From Arthrobacter echini (GTDB taxonomy: Bacteria; Actinomycetota; Actinomycetes; Actinomycetales; Micrococcaceae): DNA of 64,000 nt. The notes below the pieces were generated by a model. The model ran no database searches and was not told the origin of the DNA. It saw nothing but the letters and a program-made list of their open reading frames with translations. A program made the position numbers and the translations under genes. Shown here in pieces: positions 35,041-47,699 of this stretch. Positions within the stretch are counted from its first letter, which is position 1; each line of letters opens with the position of its first letter. The stretch is from assembly GCF_008107445.1 (NCBI RefSeq), contig NZ_VSLD01000006.1, forward strand, positions 124,001-188,000, read 5' to 3'.

Positions 35041-36270
35041 CTAGCCCACCGGCTTCCCGGCGAGGAGGTTCCGGGTGAAGCCCAACACGTCCTCCTGAAG
35101 CCCGGGGTGCGCTCGCGGATCGGGTTCGGTGGAGGATGCGAAAGTCTCCAGCGCCTCCAGCGCCCGTGAGATGAGCGGCTCCGGCGAGCGGAGGCGCCAG
35201 GAGGTTGCCTCCTCGACGAGGTCCGCACGCGTGAGCTCCGTGTGACGGTAGGTGCCGTTGACGGACATGGCCATCCGCCCGTCCGTGGGCTGGTGGCGCA
35301 TGGGCACGACGTCGTATGCGGGGGCGAGTTCGGAGCGGCCGTCGGGGTGGTGGAGCAGGGACAGGTTCTTCGCATGCAGATCGAGGTTGCCGAGGGCGAC
35401 GGCGAGGACGGTCGTCGTGAGGAGGCGCTCGAGGGACTCGTTGTCCCCACCGCGGCGGAATACGTCCGCGATGCGCCGCAAACTGACCTTGCCGCCGTGC
35501 TCCTGGTACTTCTCGTTACCGTGGGCCCCGAGGACCTGGTTCATGTCCTCCTGGTGAATGCGTCCCGTGGGAGCGGAGGCTGATCGATCGAAGCGCTCGA
35601 TGACGAGGGCGGGGGTGCCCGCGAAGTCGTCCAGCCACGTCCGGCTACGGGACAGCCCCAGCGCGCGGGCCGCTCGGGCGCCGTACTCCTCGTCGTAGAT
35701 GATCGTCGCGTGATCGCGTGGGGCAGGTTTGATGATGTGCGTTGACGGATATCCGTCGTGAACGCGGTGCCAAGCGTCGTCGACCCGTGCCAGGACGATC
35801 TTGTCCTGTACCCCTGCGAGGGAGGTCTTCCCCGAGAGGGGACTGTTGGCCAACGGCTGCGCCGAGGTCGACTGCAACAACTCCCTGATGCCCTCGGGCG
35901 TCAGGCGCTCGGTCCGGGGACGGCGCGGCTCGCCTGGGCGTTCGGGATCCCAGATCTGCAGGGCGCCCGCGACATCGCGTCCGAAGTGGGTGAGCAGCGT
36001 GGGGGTGTCGTACTCCTGGCTTCCCACCCGTGCTGCGAGATTCGAGAGGATGCGCCCTTCGGGGAGCAGCTCTGTGAAGAAATTTCGACGGCGTGAGGCT
36101 CGGGTGCGGTTCGCCGAGAGCTCGAGCGGAACGGATTCGGACAAAACAGTACTGCCGAGGTCGAAGTGGTCGAAGCATGAACGGTCGGCGCGGAAATCGA
36201 AGGTCCGCCAGTCCGTGCCCGTCAACCGGCCCACCAGGATCCCGTACAGCTCGACGCGTAGCTCACTCAT
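35041..36270 (-). CDS. hipA: HipA-like serine/threonine kinase toxin
   Basis: A 409-residue HipA protein. The N-terminal subdomain starts MSELRVELYGILVGRL, the activation-loop region SPLSGKTSLAGVQDKIVLA contains the regulatory serine region, the ligand strand is ALVIERFDR, and the catalytic/metal motifs are LGNLDLHAKNLSLL and APAYDVVP. HipA phosphorylates targets such as glutamyl-tRNA synthetase and causes dormancy when unbound by HipB. The ATG overlaps the hipB stop by 8 bp. All key motifs look intact, unlike the neighbouring vapC. Confidence 0.9.
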   Translation of the reverse strand: MSELRVELYGILVGRLTGTDWRTFDFRADRSCFDHFDLGSTVLSESVPLELSANRTRASRRRNFFTELLPEGRILSNLAARVGSQEYDTPTLLTHFGRDVAGALQIWDPERPGEPRRPRTERLTPEGIRELLQSTSAQPLANSPLSGKTSLAGVQDKIVLARVDDAWHRVHDGYPSTHIIKPAPRDHATIIYDEEYGARAARALGLSRSRTWLDDFAGTPALVIERFDRSASAPTGRIHQEDMNQVLGAHGNEKYQEHGGKVSLRRIADVFRRGGDNESLERLLTTTVLAVALGNLDLHAKNLSLLHHPDGRSELAPAYDVVPMRHQPTDGRMAMSVNGTYRHTELTRADLVEEATSWRLRSPEPLISRALEALETFASSTEPDPRAHPGLQEDVLGFTRNLLAGKPVG

Positions 36271-36529
36271 CGCTCGAAAGCTCCGACGGATGTGCATCCT
36301 CTTCCGGCTCGTCGACTTCTGCATAGAGGCGCACGCCGGTGGCGCGCAGCATCTCGAAGAGTCGTTCAGTGAGCAGGCCGGGCTTCCCCTGCTCCATCTC
36401 CCATACCCATTTCTGGCCGATGCCGAGCTGCTCGGCCAATTGCCGCTGGCTCATTCCGTGGAGCATGCGTCCCTGCTGGAGCATGCGGCCCAGGGCTTCG
36501 GCATTTCGGACCTGTCCTCGCAGTGTCAT
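36263..36529 (-). CDS. hipB: HipB-like helix-turn-helix antitoxin
   Basis: An 88-residue Xre/HipB regulator: ALGRMLQQGRMLHGMSQRQL with the recognition helix in LGIGQKWVWEMEQGKPG, and an acidic tail (EPEEDAHPSELSSDE). ATG 36529 has GAGGTG upstream; a longer TTG frame is possible but runs through the AT-rich operator region. It should bind HipA and repress hipBA through the GATATCGA repeats upstream. Confidence 0.88.
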   Translation of the reverse strand: MTLRGQVRNAEALGRMLQQGRMLHGMSQRQLAEQLGIGQKWVWEMEQGKPGLLTERLFEMLRATGVRLYAEVDEPEEDAHPSELSSDE

Positions 36530-36545
36530 TCTGGCCCACCTCAGT

Positions 36546-36618
36546 GATATCGATAGTGGAGTCATCCTGTTTGAAGCTGATATCGAAGTCACATTACGTA
36601 CATTCGATATCGAAGTCA
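36546..36618. promoter_or_regulatory. Three GATATCGA repeats, candidate HipB operator
   Basis: The palindromic core GATATCGA occurs at 36,546, 36,579 and 36,606. The last two copies extend to a 13-bp direct repeat, GATATCGAAGTCA, spaced 27 bp apart. The stretch is AT-rich compared with its surroundings and lies between hipB and the divergent HEPN gene, so it could control both. Confidence 0.65.
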
Positions 36619-36747
36619 AACAGAACCAGCGGCACAAGCGACGTCAATTGCTGCGATGTCGACGCTTCGGTGTGGTCTGTCACGACCTCGTACTACGCTT
36701 TCCCCAGTGACGTGACGAACGCCACCGCTGGGGAAATAGGGGACATC

Positions 36748-37341
36748 ATGGGGCTATCAAATCGGGAGTTCATCGGGCGCGCGCTCGACATCATGGCCGA
36801 CGGGCTTGAACCGGTCATTGGTCGGACGATCGAGCAGGTGGTCCCAGGCTTGGAGTGGCCGCGGATTTTGGAACACAAGGACGAACTTCAGCACCGGGAG
36901 CCCAAGCAGCTCAAGGCCACCGATCCGCAGGTCCAACTGCGGATGCTCACCGAGCGTCTCGGTGAGCTGGGCTACCCCTTCAATCTGTCGCCGGAAGGTC
37001 GCGCCTATGCAGGTGAAATGCGCCAGGTGCGCAATCTGTGGGCGCACAACGAGCCGTTCACCGACGACGACGTGCAGCGGTACCTCGATACGACCTGCAG
37101 ACTTCTCGGGGCATTGGATACCGAGGTGGACCAGGCCCGGTCGCTCCTGGCCGAATTCAGAGGGCGGGTGACGGAGCAGGACCCAGACCATCGTGCACCG
37201 GCGATGACCCAGAGCGAAGATCGAGACGCCGAGCCGAGCGCAGTCGATGATTTACCGTCGATGCCCGAGCCTGAGCGACACGACGCACCGCTCGCCCTCA
37301 CGTTCGACTCCGCCCCCGAGCTGAGCTACGCCATGGCCTAG
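36748..37341 (+). CDS. Swt1-type HEPN domain protein: N-terminal piece of a split HEPN-helicase gene
   Basis: A 197-codon frame. It contains the HEPN ribonuclease motif R-x4-H in MRQVRNLWAHNEPF (Arg95, His100) within a Swt1-like helical domain (GRTIEQVVPGLEW), then an acidic linker. The stop is TAG at 37,339-37,341, in LSYAMA-stop. The same frame continues without a break (NGQRIISRLTITNIGADIRG...) into the helicase frame, so this is the front part of a ~2,150-codon gene interrupted by one amber codon. ATG 36748 has AGGGGA upstream. HEPN domains in defence proteins cleave RNA when triggered. Confidence 0.8.
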   Translation: MGLSNREFIGRALDIMADGLEPVIGRTIEQVVPGLEWPRILEHKDELQHREPKQLKATDPQVQLRMLTERLGELGYPFNLSPEGRAYAGEMRQVRNLWAHNEPFTDDDVQRYLDTTCRLLGALDTEVDQARSLLAEFRGRVTEQDPDHRAPAMTQSEDRDAEPSAVDDLPSMPEPERHDAPLALTFDSAPELSYAMA

Positions 37342-37440
37342 AACGGTCAACGCATCATCAGCAGGCTCACCATCACCAATATCGGCGCCGACATCAGGGG
37401 AGCGGTTCTCAAGCTGAGTGTCATAGGAGACTCGGGTCTC

Positions 37441-40400
37441 GTGACACAGCCGTCGGAGCATTACCTCGACCTACCACGGCAGCAGACGATCATGATCGCC
37501 GAACCCGAGATACGTGCAGATCCTGCTGTGCTGCTGCAACTCCAGGACCGACAGCAGGGGGTGATTCGAGCCGATCTCGAGGTCGACGGTCAACACCTGG
37601 CCCATCACACTGGGTCCATCGAACTGCTAGCAGCGCATCACTGGCGCCACCACTCCGGCCTGCTCACTCTGGAATCCCTCGCCGCCTTCGTCCAGCCGAA
37701 TCACCCGGCCATCACGGCAGTCTGTTCGGAGGCCTCGGACCTTCTGGTTGCGGCGACGGGCAGCGGTTCGCTGGAGGGGTACCAGGCCGGGCCACAGCGC
37801 GCTGACCAGATCGCGGAAGCGCTCGCGCACGCTCTGCGGAATCGCAATATCCGTTATAGCGAGCCACCCGCATCATGGGGCCAGGACGCACAGCGTGTCC
37901 GCACAGCCGACGAGGTCCTCAACGGCCGCTTCGGCACCTGCCTCGATACCGTCGTCGTGCTGGCCGCAGCGATGGAGTTCGCAGGACTCCAAGCAAATCT
38001 CTGGCTCGTGCAGGGGCACATCTTCCTCGGCTACTGGAGGGACGAGGCCAACTTCAAGACGCCGGCCGTCGAGGACCCCGCGTCGTTGATCAACGCGATC
38101 GACCTCGACCGGATCCGGCTCATCGAGACCACGCTGCTGACCGATGGAAAACAGCACAGCATGCAGGAACTGCACGATCGGCCCTACTCGCGGTGGCTGA
38201 CCGGCGAACTGGACGAGGTGGAGGGGGTGGTGGATCTCTACGCGGCCAGGCACTCCGGCATCCGCCCGATTCCCGTCCGGTTCACTGACGATTCCGGAAC
38301 TGTCGCAGTCATCGAGTACACGCCACCACGCCGGGAGAAGCGCGTTGTAGTGCCTGCGCAGGAGCAGACGGATCGTCGGCGTACGCAACGGCCCGAACCG
38401 CCCAGCCGAGTCACACAGTGGAAGAACACGCTCCTCGACCTGAGCCTAAGAAACCGCCTCATCAACTTCACCGCAACAGCTCGATTCCCACTCGCCGTGC
38501 CTGACGCGCAGGTGGGCGAGTTCGAGGACATGATCAACCGCGGCAAGGACATCGTGTTGATGCCCTCCGACGACGTCTCGGCAATGCAGGCCGAGCGCGG
38601 CGTCCGCTTCGGGCGGGACCTGCCCCAGGACGAACTCGCCGATGTGCTCGCGAGCGATCAGGCGGTGTTCGCTGACGTCACCCGAGGCGCTTATCAGACC
38701 CGCATGCGCAACCTCGCGTACAAGGCGAAGACCCTGATCGAGGAAACGGGTGCCAACAACCTCTACCTGGCACTGGGTTCGCTCGTCTGGAATCTTGATG
38801 GACGCGAGCTGCGATCGCCATTGGTCCTTATGCCGGTCCGGCTCCGCCCCACCTCCAAGCAGGGCCCGTACCAGATCAGTATCGACGACGCCGGCACCTC
38901 CACCCCTAACTACTGCCTCCTCGAGAAGCTCCGGCTCGCGCTGGGTCTGGAGATCCCCGGACTCGCCGAACCAGTGGAGGACGATGCCGGCATCGACCTG
39001 CACAAGGCGTTCGAAGCGGTGCGGATAGCCGTCGCGGAGAAGGGTCTACCGTTCCGCGTCGAGCCGACGGTGGACCTGTCCATCCTCCAGTTCGCCAAGT
39101 TCAGATTGTGGAAGGATCTCGACGAGCAGTGGGGAGAACTGGGTAAGAACCCGCTGGTGCACCACCTGATCCACTCACCGACGGAATCGTTCACCGATCC
39201 GGTGCACACAGCCTCCGCCGACGATCTCGACCTCCTCGCCACCAAGGTGCCGATTCCGGCGGACTCGTCCCAATTGCTCGCCATCGCCGAGGCGGTTGCC
39301 GGGAAGACCTTCGTTCTGGAAGGCCCTCCCGGAACCGGAAAATCACAGACGATCACGAATCTGCTCACTCGTGCGATCGCCGACGGCAAGCGCGTCCTGT
39401 TCGTCGCCGAGAAGCGGGCAGCGCTCGACGTCGTGCAGAAACGCCTTGACGAGGTCGGCATGGGGGTCTTCTCGCTCGACCTGCACGACAAGGGAAGTAA
39501 GCCCGCAGCCGTGCGCCGTCAGATCCGGCAGGCCCTGGACCACACAGCGCATCCGGACCGCCAGGGTCTTGGTGCGGCGCTCGGCGAGCTCAACAATGCG
39601 CGTCGAGGTCTGGTGCGCTATGCGGCGCGGCTGCATGAGGAGAACGGTGCCGAGCTCTCGCTGTACTCAGCCCGGACGCAGGAGCTCACCATCGGCGATG
39701 AGATCCACGCCCTTCCTGTTCCCGAAGCCTTCGTGGAGGCAGTGTCCCTGGGGAAACTACAGCAGCTCCGAACCGTCTTGGCGGAACTACCCGACGCTGC
39801 AGAACCGGCCCACTTGAGCGAGGATCATCCCTGGGGTTTCCTCGACTCCCCGCTGGACGAGGATGAGGGAGCAGCAGTGCTCGACGCTGCCCGGCGGTTG
39901 CAAGCGGCAGTGGACAGGTTGCCCGTGTCCGATCCGCTCCTTGCTGTGCTCCGGGCTGCCCGAGACGCGAGTGACTTCGAAAAATTCGCGTCCCTGCTGC
40001 CTGCCCGGACGGTGGACCTCGACGTGCTCGATGAAGCGGGGACGGAACGATGGGCCACGGCCACCAAGGATCTCCAGGCCTACCTGAGTGTATTCCTCGC
40101 GGCGTCACACCCGGGCCTTGACAGGGTGGTACCCGAGGTCCTCGACCTGCCGATCGCCGACATCCATGCGGAAGCGGTTGCGGCGGCCGCGTCGAGCGTC
40201 TTCGGTCGGAAGAAACGGCTCGTCGACGTCCGCGAGAAGATCGCGCCCCACATCCGGCCCGGCGTGGAAGTCAAGCCCAGCACGCTGCCCGAGCTGACCG
40301 GTGCGCTGATGGCAGTTCAGGGCGCTGTCCGGGGACTGGCGTCAGGTGCAAACACCATCCCCGGAATCGAACTGCCGCCCTCCTGGAGTCCCTTCACAGT

Positions 40401-43200
40401 TGAGGGACAGCAATACCTCGCACGCAATGTGCAGTGGCTCGAGTGGGCATCACAATTGGTCAAGGCTCCTCCTGCCCACGCTGAGGAGGACTTCGTCCAA
40501 ACCATGCGGGCCTTCTTCCGTCGCGGGTCTGCCGTGGACCAGCCGACGGTCGACGTCGTCGGCTCACTGTCCCGTGCGGTCCGCGATCTGGTGTCAGCGG
40601 CAGGGTTGGACGAGCCCGGTCTAGGAAGGTGGCTGAGCGGCCTGCCGTTCCTCATTCGATGGGAGCAGACCGCGCAGAATCGAGGTGCCGAGGGCTCAGA
40701 GTCGCCGTCTCTCCGCCGCTGGCTCGTCTTCCTGCAAGCGTTAGAACCGTTGCGCGTAGAAGGTCTCCTTCAAGCACGGGAGGAGTTGAGGCTCGGCCGC
40801 CTGGATGCCGATGACGCCGCTCGCGCCTTCGAGCGTGGACTCGCCGAAGCATCGCAACGTGAACGGGGCGCGGCGAAGGGTTTGAGCAGCTTCGAGCCCC
40901 GTACTCACGAGCGGATGATCAACCGCTTCACAACCCGGTCGGCTCAGGTGCGGCAGGAATTGAGGACGGCGTTGCCCGATGACGTGCTAAAAGCGCGCAC
41001 CTTCGGAGCGAATTCCAGTGCAGGCCGCATGGGTCTGCTGCAACGCCAGTTAAACTACAAGACCGGCGGACTGCGCGTCCGTGCACTGCTGGAGACGCAT
41101 GGTGACCTCATCACAAGGATCATGCCTTGCGTGCTCGTCAGCCCTGACTCGGTGGCACGGTTCTTCCCCGCTACGTCGGAGCTCTTCGATCTGGTGGTCT
41201 TCGACGAGGCGTCGCAGATCCGCGTCGCGGACGCCGTGGGTGCTATGGGTCGTGGCCGGGCCGTCGTCGTCGTGGGCGACAGCAAGCAGATGCCACCGAC
41301 GTCCTTCGCGGAGACCACGACGGACCGCGATGAGGAGACCGAGCTGGTCAACGAGACAGTGGAGGACGAGGAATCGATCCTGTCCGAATGTGTGCTGGCA
41401 CGAGTCCCTCGGCAGTGGTTGTCCTGGCACTACCGAAGTCAGGACGAATCGCTCATCGCATTCAGCAACCAGCAGTACTACGACAATAAGCTGTCGTCCT
41501 TTCCCGCGCCGGTCCATGGCCCGGCGAGCGCCGGCCCCGGAGGCTTCGGCATCAACTTCGTCCGCGTGGACGGGCATTTCCACCGGTCCGGGGCCGGCAA
41601 ACTCCTCCGCACCAACCCCGTCGAGGCCGCCGCCGTAGTGGAGGAGATCAAGCGTCGCTTCCTTGATTCGCCGTCCGTGGCACCCTCTGTAGGGGTGGTC
41701 ACCTTTAACCTGCAGCAGCGGGCCCACATTGAGGCGCTTTTGCGTGACTCGGAGGACCCTCGAATCGTCGATGCGCTCGATGTTCCCGATGGGCTGTTCG
41801 TGAAGAATCTCGAGAACGTCCAGGGCGACGAGCGGGACACTATCCTGTTCTCGACGGGCTTCAGCAAAAATGACCGCGGATATCTGCCACTGAACTTCGG
41901 TCCGCTGAACCGCAGTGGTGGTGAGCGCAGGCTCAATGTCGCTGTGACTCGTGCTCGACGTCAGGTGGTCGTGTTCTCCAGCTTTGACCCGACCGACCTG
42001 CGGGCGGAGGACACCTCGTCGGTCGGCGTCAAGCACCTCCGGACTTACCTCGAGATCGCGGCGCACGGTCCCACCGCGTTGCCGTTCGACGGACGTCGAA
42101 GGCCTGCAGTCGACCGTCATCGGGAACAGATTGCCAGCGCCTTGCGTGAACATGGGTTTTTCGTCACCACGGACGTCGGGCTCTCGGACTTCAAAGTGGA
42201 TCTTAGTGTGGCGACCGCGGAGGAGCCTGACAAGCCGTTGATGGCGGTGCTTCTGGACTCTCCGGCCTGGGCTGCTCGTGCGACCGTGGGGGACCGGGAC
42301 GGCCTCCCGTCCGATGTGCTCTCCAGAATGCTGAGATGGCCGGCAGTGGAGCGAATCTGGCTTCCCGAATGGTTGCTCGATTCCGCAGCGGTAGTCGAGC
42401 GACTCCGCACCACGATGGCGTCCGCACAACACCGTGGTGAGGAGCGCCCCGAGTCGGAGCTGGAGACCGGGCCCGACGATACCTTCGGTAAGGGCCATGA
42501 AGCACCATCGATCGGTTCCTTACCCGAACGCCTCACTGATGTACCGGTGCCCGGTCCTGAGATGGAGCAGACACTCGATATCGAGGATCTCGGGCCGGTT
42601 CGGGCGCAAGAAATTGCCGCACGTCCGACGTCCGGTGCCACTACCTACCGAGCATGGACCCCGCGGGTGCTGGGAGGGGTGGAGGTGCTGGATGCGCTGT
42701 CGTCGTCAGCACAGTCCAGGGCGCTAGTTGTCGTCGCTCTCGGCCAGATCATCGATGCGGAAGGGCCGATCCATAGGGGTCGCCTCGCGAAGCTCGCGTG
42801 CGCCGAATTTTCGCTGAACAAGATGAGCAGCCAACGCGCCCAGGCGGTCCTTCGGCTGGTCGACCAGCAGAAGTACCGGATCGACGACGATGGCTTCGTG
42901 TGGCCCATCGGGCTCTACTCCGACAGGTGGCGTGGGTATCGCGAGAATGGACCGGAGATCGATCGGAAGATCGAGCACATCAGCCCAGTGGAAATCATTA
43001 ACGCCATGGTGGCTGTATGCCGCGAGGCCCACGGCGTCGAGCCGGAGGAACTCAAGCGGAGAGTGATACGGGTGTTCGGTGGCAAGCGGGTGACCGTTGG
43101 CATAGGCGAGCGGCTGGATTCGGCAGTGCGGTACGCGGAGCACTCCGGCCGGCTCCACACCGACGACGCCGGTTTCCTCCATGCGTCATCAGAATCCTGA
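37441..43200 (+). CDS. DUF4011/SF1 helicase/Vsr-like nuclease/DUF3320 defence-type protein (C-terminal piece of split gene)
   Basis: A 1,919-codon frame; the true coding frame starts at 37,342, right after the amber codon, so GTG 37441 is a possible restart. Order of parts: a strand-rich region, a transglutaminase-like block (GRFGTCLDTVVVL; QGHIFLGYW), DUF4011 (LLDLSLRNRLINF), and an SF1 helicase. The helicase has Walker A GPPGTGKS (~628-635), DEAS box (VVFDEASQI), VVGDSKQMPPTSF, QWLSWHYRSQ, VQGDERDTI and VAVTRARRQ. Next come a Vsr/MTES_1575-like endonuclease fold (FKVDLSVA; AVLLDSPAWAARATVGDRDG) and a C-terminal DUF3320. This architecture occurs in phage-defence candidates. It is convergent with a nitrilase gene. 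Confidence 0.85.
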   Translation: MTQPSEHYLDLPRQQTIMIAEPEIRADPAVLLQLQDRQQGVIRADLEVDGQHLAHHTGSIELLAAHHWRHHSGLLTLESLAAFVQPNHPAITAVCSEASDLLVAATGSGSLEGYQAGPQRADQIAEALAHALRNRNIRYSEPPASWGQDAQRVRTADEVLNGRFGTCLDTVVVLAAAMEFAGLQANLWLVQGHIFLGYWRDEANFKTPAVEDPASLINAIDLDRIRLIETTLLTDGKQHSMQELHDRPYSRWLTGELDEVEGVVDLYAARHSGIRPIPVRFTDDSGTVAVIEYTPPRREKRVVVPAQEQTDRRRTQRPEPPSRVTQWKNTLLDLSLRNRLINFTATARFPLAVPDAQVGEFEDMINRGKDIVLMPSDDVSAMQAERGVRFGRDLPQDELADVLASDQAVFADVTRGAYQTRMRNLAYKAKTLIEETGANNLYLALGSLVWNLDGRELRSPLVLMPVRLRPTSKQGPYQISIDDAGTSTPNYCLLEKLRLALGLEIPGLAEPVEDDAGIDLHKAFEAVRIAVAEKGLPFRVEPTVDLSILQFAKFRLWKDLDEQWGELGKNPLVHHLIHSPTESFTDPVHTASADDLDLLATKVPIPADSSQLLAIAEAVAGKTFVLEGPPGTGKSQTITNLLTRAIADGKRVLFVAEKRAALDVVQKRLDEVGMGVFSLDLHDKGSKPAAVRRQIRQALDHTAHPDRQGLGAALGELNNARRGLVRYAARLHEENGAELSLYSARTQELTIGDEIHALPVPEAFVEAVSLGKLQQLRTVLAELPDAAEPAHLSEDHPWGFLDSPLDEDEGAAVLDAARRLQAAVDRLPVSDPLLAVLRAARDASDFEKFASLLPARTVDLDVLDEAGTERWATATKDLQAYLSVFLAASHPGLDRVVPEVLDLPIADIHAEAVAAAASSVFGRKKRLVDVREKIAPHIRPGVEVKPSTLPELTGALMAVQGAVRGLASGANTIPGIELPPSWSPFTVEGQQYLARNVQWLEWASQLVKAPPAHAEEDFVQTMRAFFRRGSAVDQPTVDVVGSLSRAVRDLVSAAGLDEPGLGRWLSGLPFLIRWEQTAQNRGAEGSESPSLRRWLVFLQALEPLRVEGLLQAREELRLGRLDADDAARAFERGLAEASQRERGAAKGLSSFEPRTHERMINRFTTRSAQVRQELRTALPDDVLKARTFGANSSAGRMGLLQRQLNYKTGGLRVRALLETHGDLITRIMPCVLVSPDSVARFFPATSELFDLVVFDEASQIRVADAVGAMGRGRAVVVVGDSKQMPPTSFAETTTDRDEETELVNETVEDEESILSECVLARVPRQWLSWHYRSQDESLIAFSNQQYYDNKLSSFPAPVHGPASAGPGGFGINFVRVDGHFHRSGAGKLLRTNPVEAAAVVEEIKRRFLDSPSVAPSVGVVTFNLQQRAHIEALLRDSEDPRIVDALDVPDGLFVKNLENVQGDERDTILFSTGFSKNDRGYLPLNFGPLNRSGGERRLNVAVTRARRQVVVFSSFDPTDLRAEDTSSVGVKHLRTYLEIAAHGPTALPFDGRRRPAVDRHREQIASALREHGFFVTTDVGLSDFKVDLSVATAEEPDKPLMAVLLDSPAWAARATVGDRDGLPSDVLSRMLRWPAVERIWLPEWLLDSAAVVERLRTTMASAQHRGEERPESELETGPDDTFGKGHEAPSIGSLPERLTDVPVPGPEMEQTLDIEDLGPVRAQEIAARPTSGATTYRAWTPRVLGGVEVLDALSSSAQSRALVVVALGQIIDAEGPIHRGRLAKLACAEFSLNKMSSQRAQAVLRLVDQQKYRIDDDGFVWPIGLYSDRWRGYRENGPEIDRKIEHISPVEIINAMVAVCREAHGVEPEELKRRVIRVFGGKRVTVGIGERLDSAVRYAEHSGRLHTDDAGFLHASSES

Positions 43201-43277
43201 GTCAGGGCGCGACCGCAAGCGCTGGAGCTCCTCTGCGTGATGAGGTGAAGGCGCGCGCGAACTCCTCTGGCTGGAGT

Positions 43278-43331: not shown

Positions 43332-44120
43332 TCAGCCGAACAGCTCCGGTCGTCGACAGGTCAGGTAGGTGTTGAGCCCGCGTGCGCGCCCCACTTCCCG
43401 CTGATCGACATCGGCGACGAGAAGCTCCTCTCCGGATCCGGCGAGGGCGAGGAAGGTCCCGTAAGGGCTGGTGATGCTGCTGAGACCCGTGAACCCGGGG
43501 GTGGTGTGGTTCGCGTAGGCGATGTACACGCCGTTCTCGAGGGCGCGCGCAGGGACGAGCAGAGTGGAGATGCGCTCCGCGTTGTAGGTGTGCTCCGGTG
43601 GGCGACCGCCCACATCGCCCGTTGCAGGGACGGCAGTCGGGATGAGGAGTGCGTCAGCACCTCGCTGCGCCGCACTCCGCGCGAATTCCGGGAACTCGAT
43701 GTCGTAGCAGATACCGAGGGCGACGCTCAGGCCCACGAGCGGCACCAGCTCCGGAAGCTCGTCACCGGGAAGGAAGACCGCCTGCTCCTCCGCCCCGAAC
43801 AGGTGCGACTTCCGGTAGCGGGCAAGCTCGGCGCCCTGGCGGTCGAACAGCGAGGCGCTGATGTGCCGCCCGTCCTCCACCGTGGAACCGACCAGGGCAA
43901 TACCGTGGCGCTTCGCGATGCCACCTAGTGCGGTCCGGAGTCCTGCACCGTCGGAGACTGCGACACGAGCCGGGGCATAGCCGGTCGCGAAGAGTTCGGG
44001 GGTCACGAGGATCTGGGCTCCCTGTGCCACAGCGCGCGCGGCGAAGTCGTCGATCCGCCGCAGGTTCTCGTCCTCCGCGCCGACCACCCCCGCAGCCTGC
44101 ATCACGGCCAGTCCGGGCAC
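43332..44120 (-). CDS. Carbon-nitrogen hydrolase (nitrilase superfamily)
   Basis: A 262-residue amidase with the complete catalytic triad: Glu42 (VTPELFATGY), Lys104 (RYRKSHLFG) and Cys138 (LGICYDIEFPE). It hydrolyses an amide, carbamoyl or nitrile group in the cytoplasm. It diverges from the small-membrane-protein/NCS1 operon, and a nucleobase- or hydantoin-type transporter next door makes an N-carbamoyl or small amide substrate plausible. The start is ATG 44120; an internal ATG at residue 7 is possible. Confidence 0.88.
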   Translation of the reverse strand: MPGLAVMQAAGVVGAEDENLRRIDDFAARAVAQGAQILVTPELFATGYAPARVAVSDGAGLRTALGGIAKRHGIALVGSTVEDGRHISASLFDRQGAELARYRKSHLFGAEEQAVFLPGDELPELVPLVGLSVALGICYDIEFPEFARSAAQRGADALLIPTAVPATGDVGGRPPEHTYNAERISTLLVPARALENGVYIAYANHTTPGFTGLSSITSPYGTFLALAGSGEELLVADVDQREVGRARGLNTYLTCRRPELFG

Positions 44121-44256
44121 CGTTTCTCCCTCCAGAACGGCAGCAGAGCCACCACGTCACGAGTGCGGGTCGGCCGGGCAGACCCATTGACAGTCCCCAT
44201 GATAGGCACAACGATGTACCCAACCGAACGACATTCGTTTATTGGAGAAGGACACG

Positions 44257-44430
44257 ATGGATTCAGCGGACGCCACGACAGCAGCGGATCTCCAGCGGAG
44301 GCTCGACGACATTTCCGCGCACGAGGACCGGGATCCTTCGAGGGCCGCGCTCTCGGGCCGGGACCTCGCCGTGTTCACTCTCGTGACCCTCGGGATCACC
44401 CTGCTCGGATTCCTGGTGCTGGCACTGTGA
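44257..44430 (+). CDS. Small single-span membrane protein coupled to the NCS1 transporter
   Basis: A 57-residue protein: an acidic/charged N-terminus (MDSADATTAADLQRRLDDIS; DRDPSRAALSGRD) followed by one strong C-terminal membrane helix (FTLVTLGITLLGFLVLAL). ATG 44257 has AAGGA upstream. Its TGA overlaps the GTG of the transporter (GTGA), so the two are translationally coupled. I recognise no family; it looks like a small accessory or stabilising subunit of the transporter. Confidence 0.7.
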   Translation: MDSADATTAADLQRRLDDISAHEDRDPSRAALSGRDLAVFTLVTLGITLLGFLVLAL

Positions 44431-45890
44431 GTACGGACCGCGCCAGGAGCGGGGAATCGGCCGTCGACGCAGGGCGGGGCTCACTGGGATCCCTGCCCCT
44501 GCTCCGTGGCGAACGCATCTGGAACGCAGGCGACTTCACAGGCGTCAACATCAGCCTGGCGATCGCCACGTGGGCCTTCCTCGTCGGGGGCTCGACGGCG
44601 CTCCTCGTCGGCTTCCAGCAGGGTATTGCGGCAATGGTCATCGGCAACGCGATCGGGCTCGGCTTCATGATCCTGGCGAGCGTCGTTGCGAGCCAGCGGT
44701 ACGGGGTGGAGCAGTACACGATCCTCCGCCCGGTCTTCGGGCTCGTCGGCGTCGGGATCCTCGTCTTCACCGTCATCCTCATCACCGAGATGGGGTGGTC
44801 CTCGCTGCTGGCGATCATGGTGGGCAGGGCGGTCACGCAGGTGTCCAACTCCGCTCTCGGTACGGACTTCGGGCCGGAGAGTCTCATGGTCACCTTCTTC
44901 GCGCTGGTGGCCATCGCGGTCGCCTGGTGGATCCTCTCCCGGGGTCCTGTCACCATCGGCCGGTTCAACAAGTTCATCGCACCCGGCCTCATCGTGGTCA
45001 CCGTCGCCCTGATGGTCTTCCTCGTCCTGAACACCTCGTGGGAAACGCTGTTCAGTGCTGCACCGTTGGCTCCCTTCGAGGACGAGCGGCTCAACTTCGC
45101 CCTGGCCGTCGAATTCAATGTGGGAGTGGGCGTCTCCTGGTACCCCGTCATGGGCTCGCTCGCCCGGCTGACGAAGACACCGAGGGCAGCGCTGTGGCCC
45201 TCGTACGGCGGGCTGCTCGGCGCAACCCTGATCGCGCAGGTCGTCGGCATGGCTGCTGCCCTGACGCTCGGTGACTCGGATCCCACGGTGTGGATGCTGC
45301 CGTTCGGCGGACCGGTCATCGGCGCGTTCATCCTGCTGTTCATCGCCTTCGCCAATATCACCAGCACCTCCTCCATCGTCTACTCCACGGTGCTCGCCAT
45401 CCGCCAGGCCAGCGGCAATCTGCTCTCCGGTGTCCGCTGGGCGTGGCTCTGCGCTGCCTTCTTCGTCCTGCCTGCCGTGCTCGCCTTCTTCCCGGGCTTC
45501 ATGTACCAGCGGTTCATGACCTTCGTGACCCTCAGCGGCGCCTTCCTGGCCCCGATGTGCGGGGCGATCATCGCGGACTACTTCCTGCTGCGCCGCCAGC
45601 GCGTCTCGCTGGGAGACCTCTACAGCCACCGAAGCGACAGTGCCTACCACTTCCACGGGGGAGTGAACTGGGCAGGGTTGGGCGCCGTCGTGGTCGGAGC
45701 TGTCTTCTACCTGCTGATCTACAACCCGGTCACCCTGACGGCCCAGCCGATCTTCGGGTACATCACGGCCTCCTTCCCGTCGGCCGTCGTCGGAGCGCTC
45801 GTCTACTACGTGCTCGCCCAGGTTCTCTACGTCCGCCGCGGCATCGGGGATTACTCCACAGCCGCGCAGCAGGTCGGGGGCGGGGCATGA
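44427..45890 (+). CDS. NCS1-family nucleobase/hydantoin:cation symporter
   Basis: A 487-residue, 12-helix transporter: LRGERIWNAGDFTGVNIS at the N-terminus with the characteristic broken helix 1, IGNAIGLGFMILASVVASQRYG, MGWSSLLAIMVGRA, and FVTLSGAFLAPMCGAIIADYF. NCS1 proteins import purines, pyrimidines, allantoin or hydantoins; the Mhp1 hydantoin transporter has about the same length. It follows the small membrane protein with a 4-bp overlap and overlaps the alcohol dehydrogenase gene by 4 bp. Confidence 0.9.
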   Translation: MSTDRARSGESAVDAGRGSLGSLPLLRGERIWNAGDFTGVNISLAIATWAFLVGGSTALLVGFQQGIAAMVIGNAIGLGFMILASVVASQRYGVEQYTILRPVFGLVGVGILVFTVILITEMGWSSLLAIMVGRAVTQVSNSALGTDFGPESLMVTFFALVAIAVAWWILSRGPVTIGRFNKFIAPGLIVVTVALMVFLVLNTSWETLFSAAPLAPFEDERLNFALAVEFNVGVGVSWYPVMGSLARLTKTPRAALWPSYGGLLGATLIAQVVGMAAALTLGDSDPTVWMLPFGGPVIGAFILLFIAFANITSTSSIVYSTVLAIRQASGNLLSGVRWAWLCAAFFVLPAVLAFFPGFMYQRFMTFVTLSGAFLAPMCGAIIADYFLLRRQRVSLGDLYSHRSDSAYHFHGGVNWAGLGAVVVGAVFYLLIYNPVTLTAQPIFGYITASFPSAVVGALVYYVLAQVLYVRRGIGDYSTAAQQVGGGA

Positions 45891-46984
45891 GCCGCCCGTC
45901 ACGCGCAGCCGTCCATCGTAGCGGTGCCCGCGAGCTGGACCTGACCGTCGTCGAGGTGGCGGACCCCGCGCCGGGTACGGTGCTCGTCCGCATGGGTGCC
46001 TCCGGGGTGTGCGGGTCCGACCGCCACGTCCTCGACGGCGACTGGACCCTGCCGTCGCCCACCGTGATGGGTCACGAGGGTGCGGGGACCGTCGAGGCGA
46101 TCGGCGACGGCGTGACCGACGTCGGAGTGGGCGATCACGTGATCCTCTCGTGGTTCTACCCGTGCCGGCGGTGCACGGCGTGCCTGTCCGGACGGTCCTA
46201 CGTCTGTATGGGCAGCCGGTCCGAGGAATGTGTCCTGCCGGACGGCAGCAGCCCCCTCACGCTCGACGGCGAGAGGGTCTTCCCCTACCTGACCGTCGGC
46301 TCGATGAGCGAGTACGCGGTGGTCCCCGAGGCCGGAGCCATCCTGATACCCCGGGAGGTACCGTTCGACGTCGCGAGCCTGATCGGCTGCTCCATCGCCA
46401 CGGGATTCGGGGCTGTCGTGAACGACGCCGGGGTGGAGGCGGGAACCTCCGCCGTCGTCGTGGGGGCCGGCGGCGTGGGGCTCTCGATCATCATGGCGCT
46501 GCAGCTGGTCGGCGCGAACCCGATCATCGCGGTGGACCTGAGCGAGGAGAAGCTGGAAGCCGCGCGGGCCCTCGGTGCCACGCATACGCTGACGCCCTCG
46601 GCGGACCTCGCGGAGAGGATCGCCGCCATCACGCAGGGCGGTGCAGCCTACGCATTCGAGGCGATCGGGCGGGTCCAGACCATCGAGTCCCTGCCCTCGC
46701 TCATCGCCGGGGGAGGCAAGGCCGTGATCGTGGGTCTGCCGCCGGAGGACAGTCCCGTGTCCATCGACGCGCTGGCGCTCGCGGAGAGCGGCAAGTCGCT
46801 GATCGGCTCCAACTACGGCTCCACCGTGCCCGGTCGCGATTTCCCGCGCCTGGCCGCGCTGTACCTGGCGGGGCGCCTCCCGGTCGATCAGCTCATCTCG
46901 CATCGCATCGGGCTCGACGACGTCAACGAGGCCTTCGCGGCGATGAGGCGGGGAGAGCGGGCGCGCAGCGTGATCATCTTCTAG
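45887..46984 (+). CDS. Zinc-dependent alcohol dehydrogenase (MDR superfamily)
   Basis: A 365-residue medium-chain dehydrogenase. The catalytic zinc ligands are in ASGVCGSDRHV and MGHEGAG, the structural zinc loop is CRRCTACLSGRSYVC, and the NAD motif is VVVGAGGVGLSI. It starts with an ATGA overlap to the transporter. It probably oxidises an alcohol derived from the imported compound, or an S-conjugated (mycothiol-type) aldehyde adduct, since actinobacterial enzymes of this class include such dehydrogenases. Confidence 0.9.
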   Translation: MSRPSRAAVHRSGARELDLTVVEVADPAPGTVLVRMGASGVCGSDRHVLDGDWTLPSPTVMGHEGAGTVEAIGDGVTDVGVGDHVILSWFYPCRRCTACLSGRSYVCMGSRSEECVLPDGSSPLTLDGERVFPYLTVGSMSEYAVVPEAGAILIPREVPFDVASLIGCSIATGFGAVVNDAGVEAGTSAVVVGAGGVGLSIIMALQLVGANPIIAVDLSEEKLEAARALGATHTLTPSADLAERIAAITQGGAAYAFEAIGRVQTIESLPSLIAGGGKAVIVGLPPEDSPVSIDALALAESGKSLIGSNYGSTVPGRDFPRLAALYLAGRLPVDQLISHRIGLDDVNEAFAAMRRGERARSVIIF

Positions 46985-47087
46985 CGGTGGCTTGTCGGGC
47001 GACGACGGCGCGCACGACGCCGCGCGACTGCGACGGCGCACCGTCAGCAACACCGGGTGCGGCACAGCCGCTGAGGTCAGGGGGAGC

Positions 47088-47699
47088 ATGGGGCGGCCAC
47101 GCCAGGCGATTCTGTCGCCGGAGAAGATCTATCGGGCGGCGTTGGAGCTGGTCGACGAGTTCGGGGACTTCACCCTGCCCGGGCTCGCCAAGCGGCTCTC
47201 GGTGAGTCCGTCATCGATCTACCACCATGTGCAGGGTCGTCCGGAGATCATCAACGGGATCCGGTCGGTTATCGGCGCCGACGCCCTCGCGTCGGGCGAC
47301 TTCTTCACGGCGGGCCCGGACTGGCAGGGCAGGGCGGCGGCGTGGGCGCGGAGCTACCGTAGGGCGCTGGGGCAGCACGCGAAGTGCATCCCGCTGCTCG
47401 TGGGCGAGGCCGTGACGGACCACGCGACGCTCGAGATCTACGAGCACCTCGCCGCCCTGTTCGTGGACCAGGGCTTCTCGGCGAATGACGTGGTGGTGGC
47501 GGTGACGGTGCTCGACAACTTCATGCTCGGGTCGGCCCTGGACGTGGCGGCTCCCGAGTCGGCCTGGCTCGCCGATCCGGACGACCACCCCGCGCTGCAC
47601 AGCGCATTCGCCGGGGCCACACTGGATGGGCCACGCTCCGACGTCAGCTTCGAGGTGGGCGTCGCGGCCATCATCGAGCATCTCTCGACCCTGCTGTGA
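47088..47699 (+). CDS. TetR-family transcriptional regulator
   Basis: A 203-residue regulator. The N-terminal HTH is LPGLAKRLSVSPSSIYHHVQ, and the C-terminal ligand domain (VVAVTVLDNFMLGSALDV) is like TetR_C types. ATG 47088 has GGGGGAG upstream. It lies 103 bp after the alcohol dehydrogenase on the same strand and is convergent, by 3 bp, with the sugar-acid operon; it more likely controls the NCS1/dehydrogenase operon. Confidence 0.88.
   Translation: MGRPRQAILSPEKIYRAALELVDEFGDFTLPGLAKRLSVSPSSIYHHVQGRPEIINGIRSVIGADALASGDFFTAGPDWQGRAAAWARSYRRALGQHAKCIPLLVGEAVTDHATLEIYEHLAALFVDQGFSANDVVVAVTVLDNFMLGSALDVAAPESAWLADPDDHPALHSAFAGATLDGPRSDVSFEVGVAAIIEHLSTLL

Follow-up and report, generated by a model that had tools for sequence, protein, structure and literature searches.

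Known relatives of the gene

Giant HEPN proteins of the MTES_1575 type were described in 2013 with the layout HEPN, transglutaminase-like region, SF1 helicase, Vsr REase and wHTH (Anantharaman et al., PMC3710099). From this description, the C-terminal wHTH, the helicase and the Vsr-like nuclease of intact members would act on invading DNA, with the HEPN RNase as a suicide back-up. In NCBIfam, "anti-phage protein ProA" (NF058533) is a curated profile without the N-terminal HEPN; we found no paper in the literature that calls an MTES_1575-type protein ProA. DefenseFinder "Prometheus" might be linked to ProA.

In the window (the whole stretch of DNA analysed here, 64,000 nucleotides of Arthrobacter echini), translation gives one reading frame from 36748 to 43200 that is interrupted by a single TAG (Table 1). 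As judged from its sequence, the gene is a member of the known MTES_1575/ProA family. The HEPN, SF1 helicase and Vsr-like REase are all encoded in it (Pfam matches), as in the MTES_1575 family, and the 3' frame (37342–43197) scores 1702.8 bits (approximately 1703) against NF058533, where the cut-off is 1500, covering profile positions 11–1903 of 1903. The window gene loses the first 10 profile positions to the stop; the TAG falls within the first ProA profile positions, so that the frame over the profile is not uninterrupted, whereas the other above-cut-off ProA matches in Micrococcaceae are all open. In the domains matched by Pfam, it is laid out like the MTES_1575 giant HEPN proteins, with the difference that in intact relatives the HEPN is fused in one polypeptide, whereas in the window a nonsense codon lies between HEPN and the rest. 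The frame from GTG 37441 also matches PADLOC PDC-S37 (5e-271, residues 323–1909), a profile limited to the part from DUF4011 to the C-terminus. The helicase/nuclease region is common to the window gene and Hhe; the gene is not a member of Hhe in NCBIfam (NF042953, where it scores 588 bits and the cut-off is 2000). The description of a defence-type system in an earlier note on this DNA is supported.

Table 1. Features of the interrupted gene (window coordinates)
Feature	Position	Strand	Length or basis
5' frame: HEPN_Swt1 domain, disordered linker and first sandwich beta strand, ending in TAG	36748..37341	+	197 codons
HEPN_Swt1 (PF18731, 3.6e-22), R95-x4-H100 intact	36778..37116	+	Pfam match
Conserved beta-sandwich domain (residues 182–293 of the read-through protein), cut by the stop	37291..37626	+	alignment and AlphaFold2 model
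In-frame TAG, codon 198	37339..37341	+	closest two relatives: TAC (Tyr); more distant ones: mostly CAC/CAT (His)
Rest of the gene after the stop, open in the same frame	37342..43200	+	1,952 codons and stop; above ProA cut-off by itself
GTG, first in-frame after the stop, candidate restart; AGGAG 11 nt upstream	37441..37443	+	
Putative transglutaminase-like region (approximate)	37660..38250	+	PMC3710099 layout; conserved T397-C398 and H424 in alignment
DUF4011 (PF13195)	38431..38931	+	Pfam match
AAA_11, N-terminal part of SF1 helicase	39262..39516	+	Pfam match
AAA_12, C-terminal part of SF1 helicase	41374..41979	+	Pfam match
REase_MTES_1575, Vsr-like nuclease (PF18741)	42124..42411	+	Pfam match

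The domains on either side of the stop are intact, as claimed earlier. The putative transglutaminase-like region has conserved T-C and H residues in the alignment and gave no Pfam match and no specific fold match. A C-terminal DUF3320 part, also named in the earlier note, had no Pfam match in the 3' frame; this part aligns with relatives over the full length, and its assignment as wHTH/DUF3320 is taken from PMC3710099.

Origin and position of the stop

A single intact 2,153-aa protein of A. echini AM23 aligns with the two pieces from end to end, so the arrangement is not a chance one. Translation and this alignment confirm that one gene is split by an in-frame TAG with the same frame continuing. 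The A. echini AM23 orthologue is 93% identical, lies at the same locus in one uninterrupted frame and has TAC at codon 198; the next closest relative (G291) has TAC too. Since both carry it, the ancestral codon was most likely TAC, and the window would have changed from TAC to TAG by a C to G transversion. One base change does explain the split, as the earlier note proposed; the stop replaced a Tyr codon (TAC) rather than CAG. When codon 198 was compared across orthologues, as had been suggested, we found a sense codon in every intact relative (TAC, CAC, CAT, CAA or AAC in Micrococcaceae) and the frame always whole, so that TAG is derived. An internal stop occurs in just one of the 23 family genomes that exceed the ProA cut-off, namely in the window.

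Had relatives regularly carried the two parts as separate genes, the idea of a split gene would have suffered. In each intact relative with a HEPN that we examined, HEPN and the rest form one continuous frame, and surveys of 295 genomes of the family and 396 of the order turned up no intact relative that encodes the two parts as separate genes. The separately made, regulated HEPN toxin envisaged earlier therefore has no counterpart among them. HEPN_Swt1 frames of approximately 1,100–1,200 aa in the order survey resemble another HEPN family, probably HEPN + AAA/DUF499. Two relatives lack HEPN (G206 and G222), and G222 has the sandwich near its start. In the genus g23 clade, full-length relatives (L044–L051 and L053) have lost the HEPN R-x4-H motif, which suggests that an inactive domain may be kept there for a structural or regulatory role. 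Elsewhere, two ProA copies lie in a reported single open frame of 4,490 aa (G109:C1:910104-923411), and the same pair is present in G244 as separate frames of 2,229 and 2,206 aa.

A base-calling or assembly error, with a sense codon in the cell, would fit a single substitution in an otherwise intact frame. Such an isolated substitution is untypical of short-read errors, and compared with A. echini AM23 the genes over 8 kb downstream are undisrupted, bar one stop in an apparent overlapping shadow ORF; we regard an error as quite unlikely. Around the gene, an approximately 4 kb block (43600–47600; a nitrilase-like gene, a cytosine/purine permease and a dehydrogenase-like frame) is missing from A. 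echini AM23 at the same junction. On the other side, a HipA-like gene and its HTH partner occupy the minus strand at 35041–36637, where short matching pieces alone are left in A. echini AM23; an inverted repeat at 36567–36623 may be the operator of the HipA-like gene.

To place the stop in the protein, we used the alignment and an AlphaFold2 model of residues 1–521 (mean pLDDT 73, pTM 0.42; sandwich pLDDT mostly 76–92). Codon 198 is in a conserved stretch, four residues past the invariant Y194. In the model, a disordered linker (residues 145–179) precedes the beta-sandwich (182–293), and the stop is found in a short helix between sandwich strands 182–188 and 204–211. The stop is thus inside a predicted folded beta-sandwich, after its first strand, and not at a domain boundary as first thought; from the modelled positions, that boundary lies approximately 20–50 codons upstream. 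GTG 37441 corresponds to residue 232, past strand 216–227, and a product restarted there would begin after the third strand. A fold search against the PDB returned generic, weak beta-sandwich matches only, and a PDB sequence search returned no matches.

Age of the stop and loss in other genomes

When changes were polarised with G291, the window branch had an N/S of 68/93 as compared to 53/73 on the A. echini AM23 branch. Pairwise dN/dS amounts to 0.12 in HEPN and to 0.20 in the 3' part, and the 3' frame still looks selected. Under neutral decay over the whole branch, approximately 16–36 nonsense changes would be expected (nonsense fraction 0.03; dS of 0.37 or 0.16 as bounds), whereas we saw no second nonsense change or other disruption in the window gene. 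Given this expectation and an N/S like that of the sister branch, the stop is recent; inactivation covers at most approximately 8–19% of the window branch, a rough figure given that dS varies from one part of the gene to another.

Compared with A. echini AM23 (36248–43243), identity along the gene is a mosaic. From 37.8 to 42.0 kb, DNA identity is 93–98% (dS approximately 0.08–0.13), and both gene ends are at 81–87% (dS approximately 0.4); the stop is outside the similar tract. Such a sharp mosaic suggests that the middle of the gene recombined recently.

Loss of the gene is recurrent, as decayed copies in other genomes indicate: one is 5'-truncated with the last third left (G022), one is truncated with HEPN duplicated and frameshifted in an assembly with N runs (G017), one has a frameshift and two TAGs (G242) and one has a frameshift near residue 370 (G086). 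We left G016 out of the broken copies because N runs in its assembly make it unreliable.

Possible products of the interrupted gene and their meaning

Read-through of the TAG, raised in the earlier note, would yield some full-length protein from a frame that continues and stays conserved. None of the 46 tRNAs has a CUA, UCA or UUA anticodon, and we rejected an amber suppressor on this count; RF1 is present in the genome, and the stop is in no relative. Read-through is for these reasons highly improbable.

The AGGAG upstream of GTG 37441, the candidate restart, is present in the window and absent from A. echini AM23. Its predicted pairing of –7.3 kcal/mol compares with –6.1 to –8.6 kcal/mol at four presumed gene starts in the window. 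If the HEPN fragment and the restarted motor were both made, they could work as two subunits, and both halves look intact and HEPN-less family members exist. However, the restart lies past three sandwich strands, the site ranks 14th of 114 internal starts of the gene (13 others are equal or better), so that the AGGAG may be there by chance, and the surveys of family and order hold no intact two-gene relative. We consider such a functional split unlikely. A more specific idea is that the nonsense mutation, together with a newly arisen Shine-Dalgarno (SD)-like site, made two functioning genes out of a fused ProA, one for a free HEPN RNase and one for a restarted helicase-nuclease; this is distinctly doubtful.

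Taken together, these data favor one giant ProA/MTES_1575 anti-phage gene that was recently interrupted by a single nonsense substitution at codon 198, to which we give a probability of roughly three in four. Counted against inactivation are the intact HEPN domain and whole 3' frame, the SD-like site at GTG 37441, and the two HEPN-less relatives, from which a motor without HEPN can persist. With the gene inactivated, the full-length protein would no longer be produced in useful amounts, and what is left over would be a 197-aa fragment in which a complete HEPN domain is detached from motor and nuclease, with at most an additional restart product that is without the start of the sandwich domain. 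Because the HEPN fragment is cut loose and the restart product is at most partial, anti-phage function is probably lost in the window strain. The locus most likely represents a commonplace case, a copy of a known defence gene that was disabled not long ago, rather than a new two-part system.

Calls of "ProA present" may count a broken gene as working defence, as the 3' frame passes the cut-off alone. If the gene is inactivated, it is one more example of large anti-phage genes being readily lost. The leftover intact HEPN fragment raises the question of whether a HEPN RNase does any harm once separated from its motor; the answer would help to show if switching HEPN on requires the remainder of the protein.
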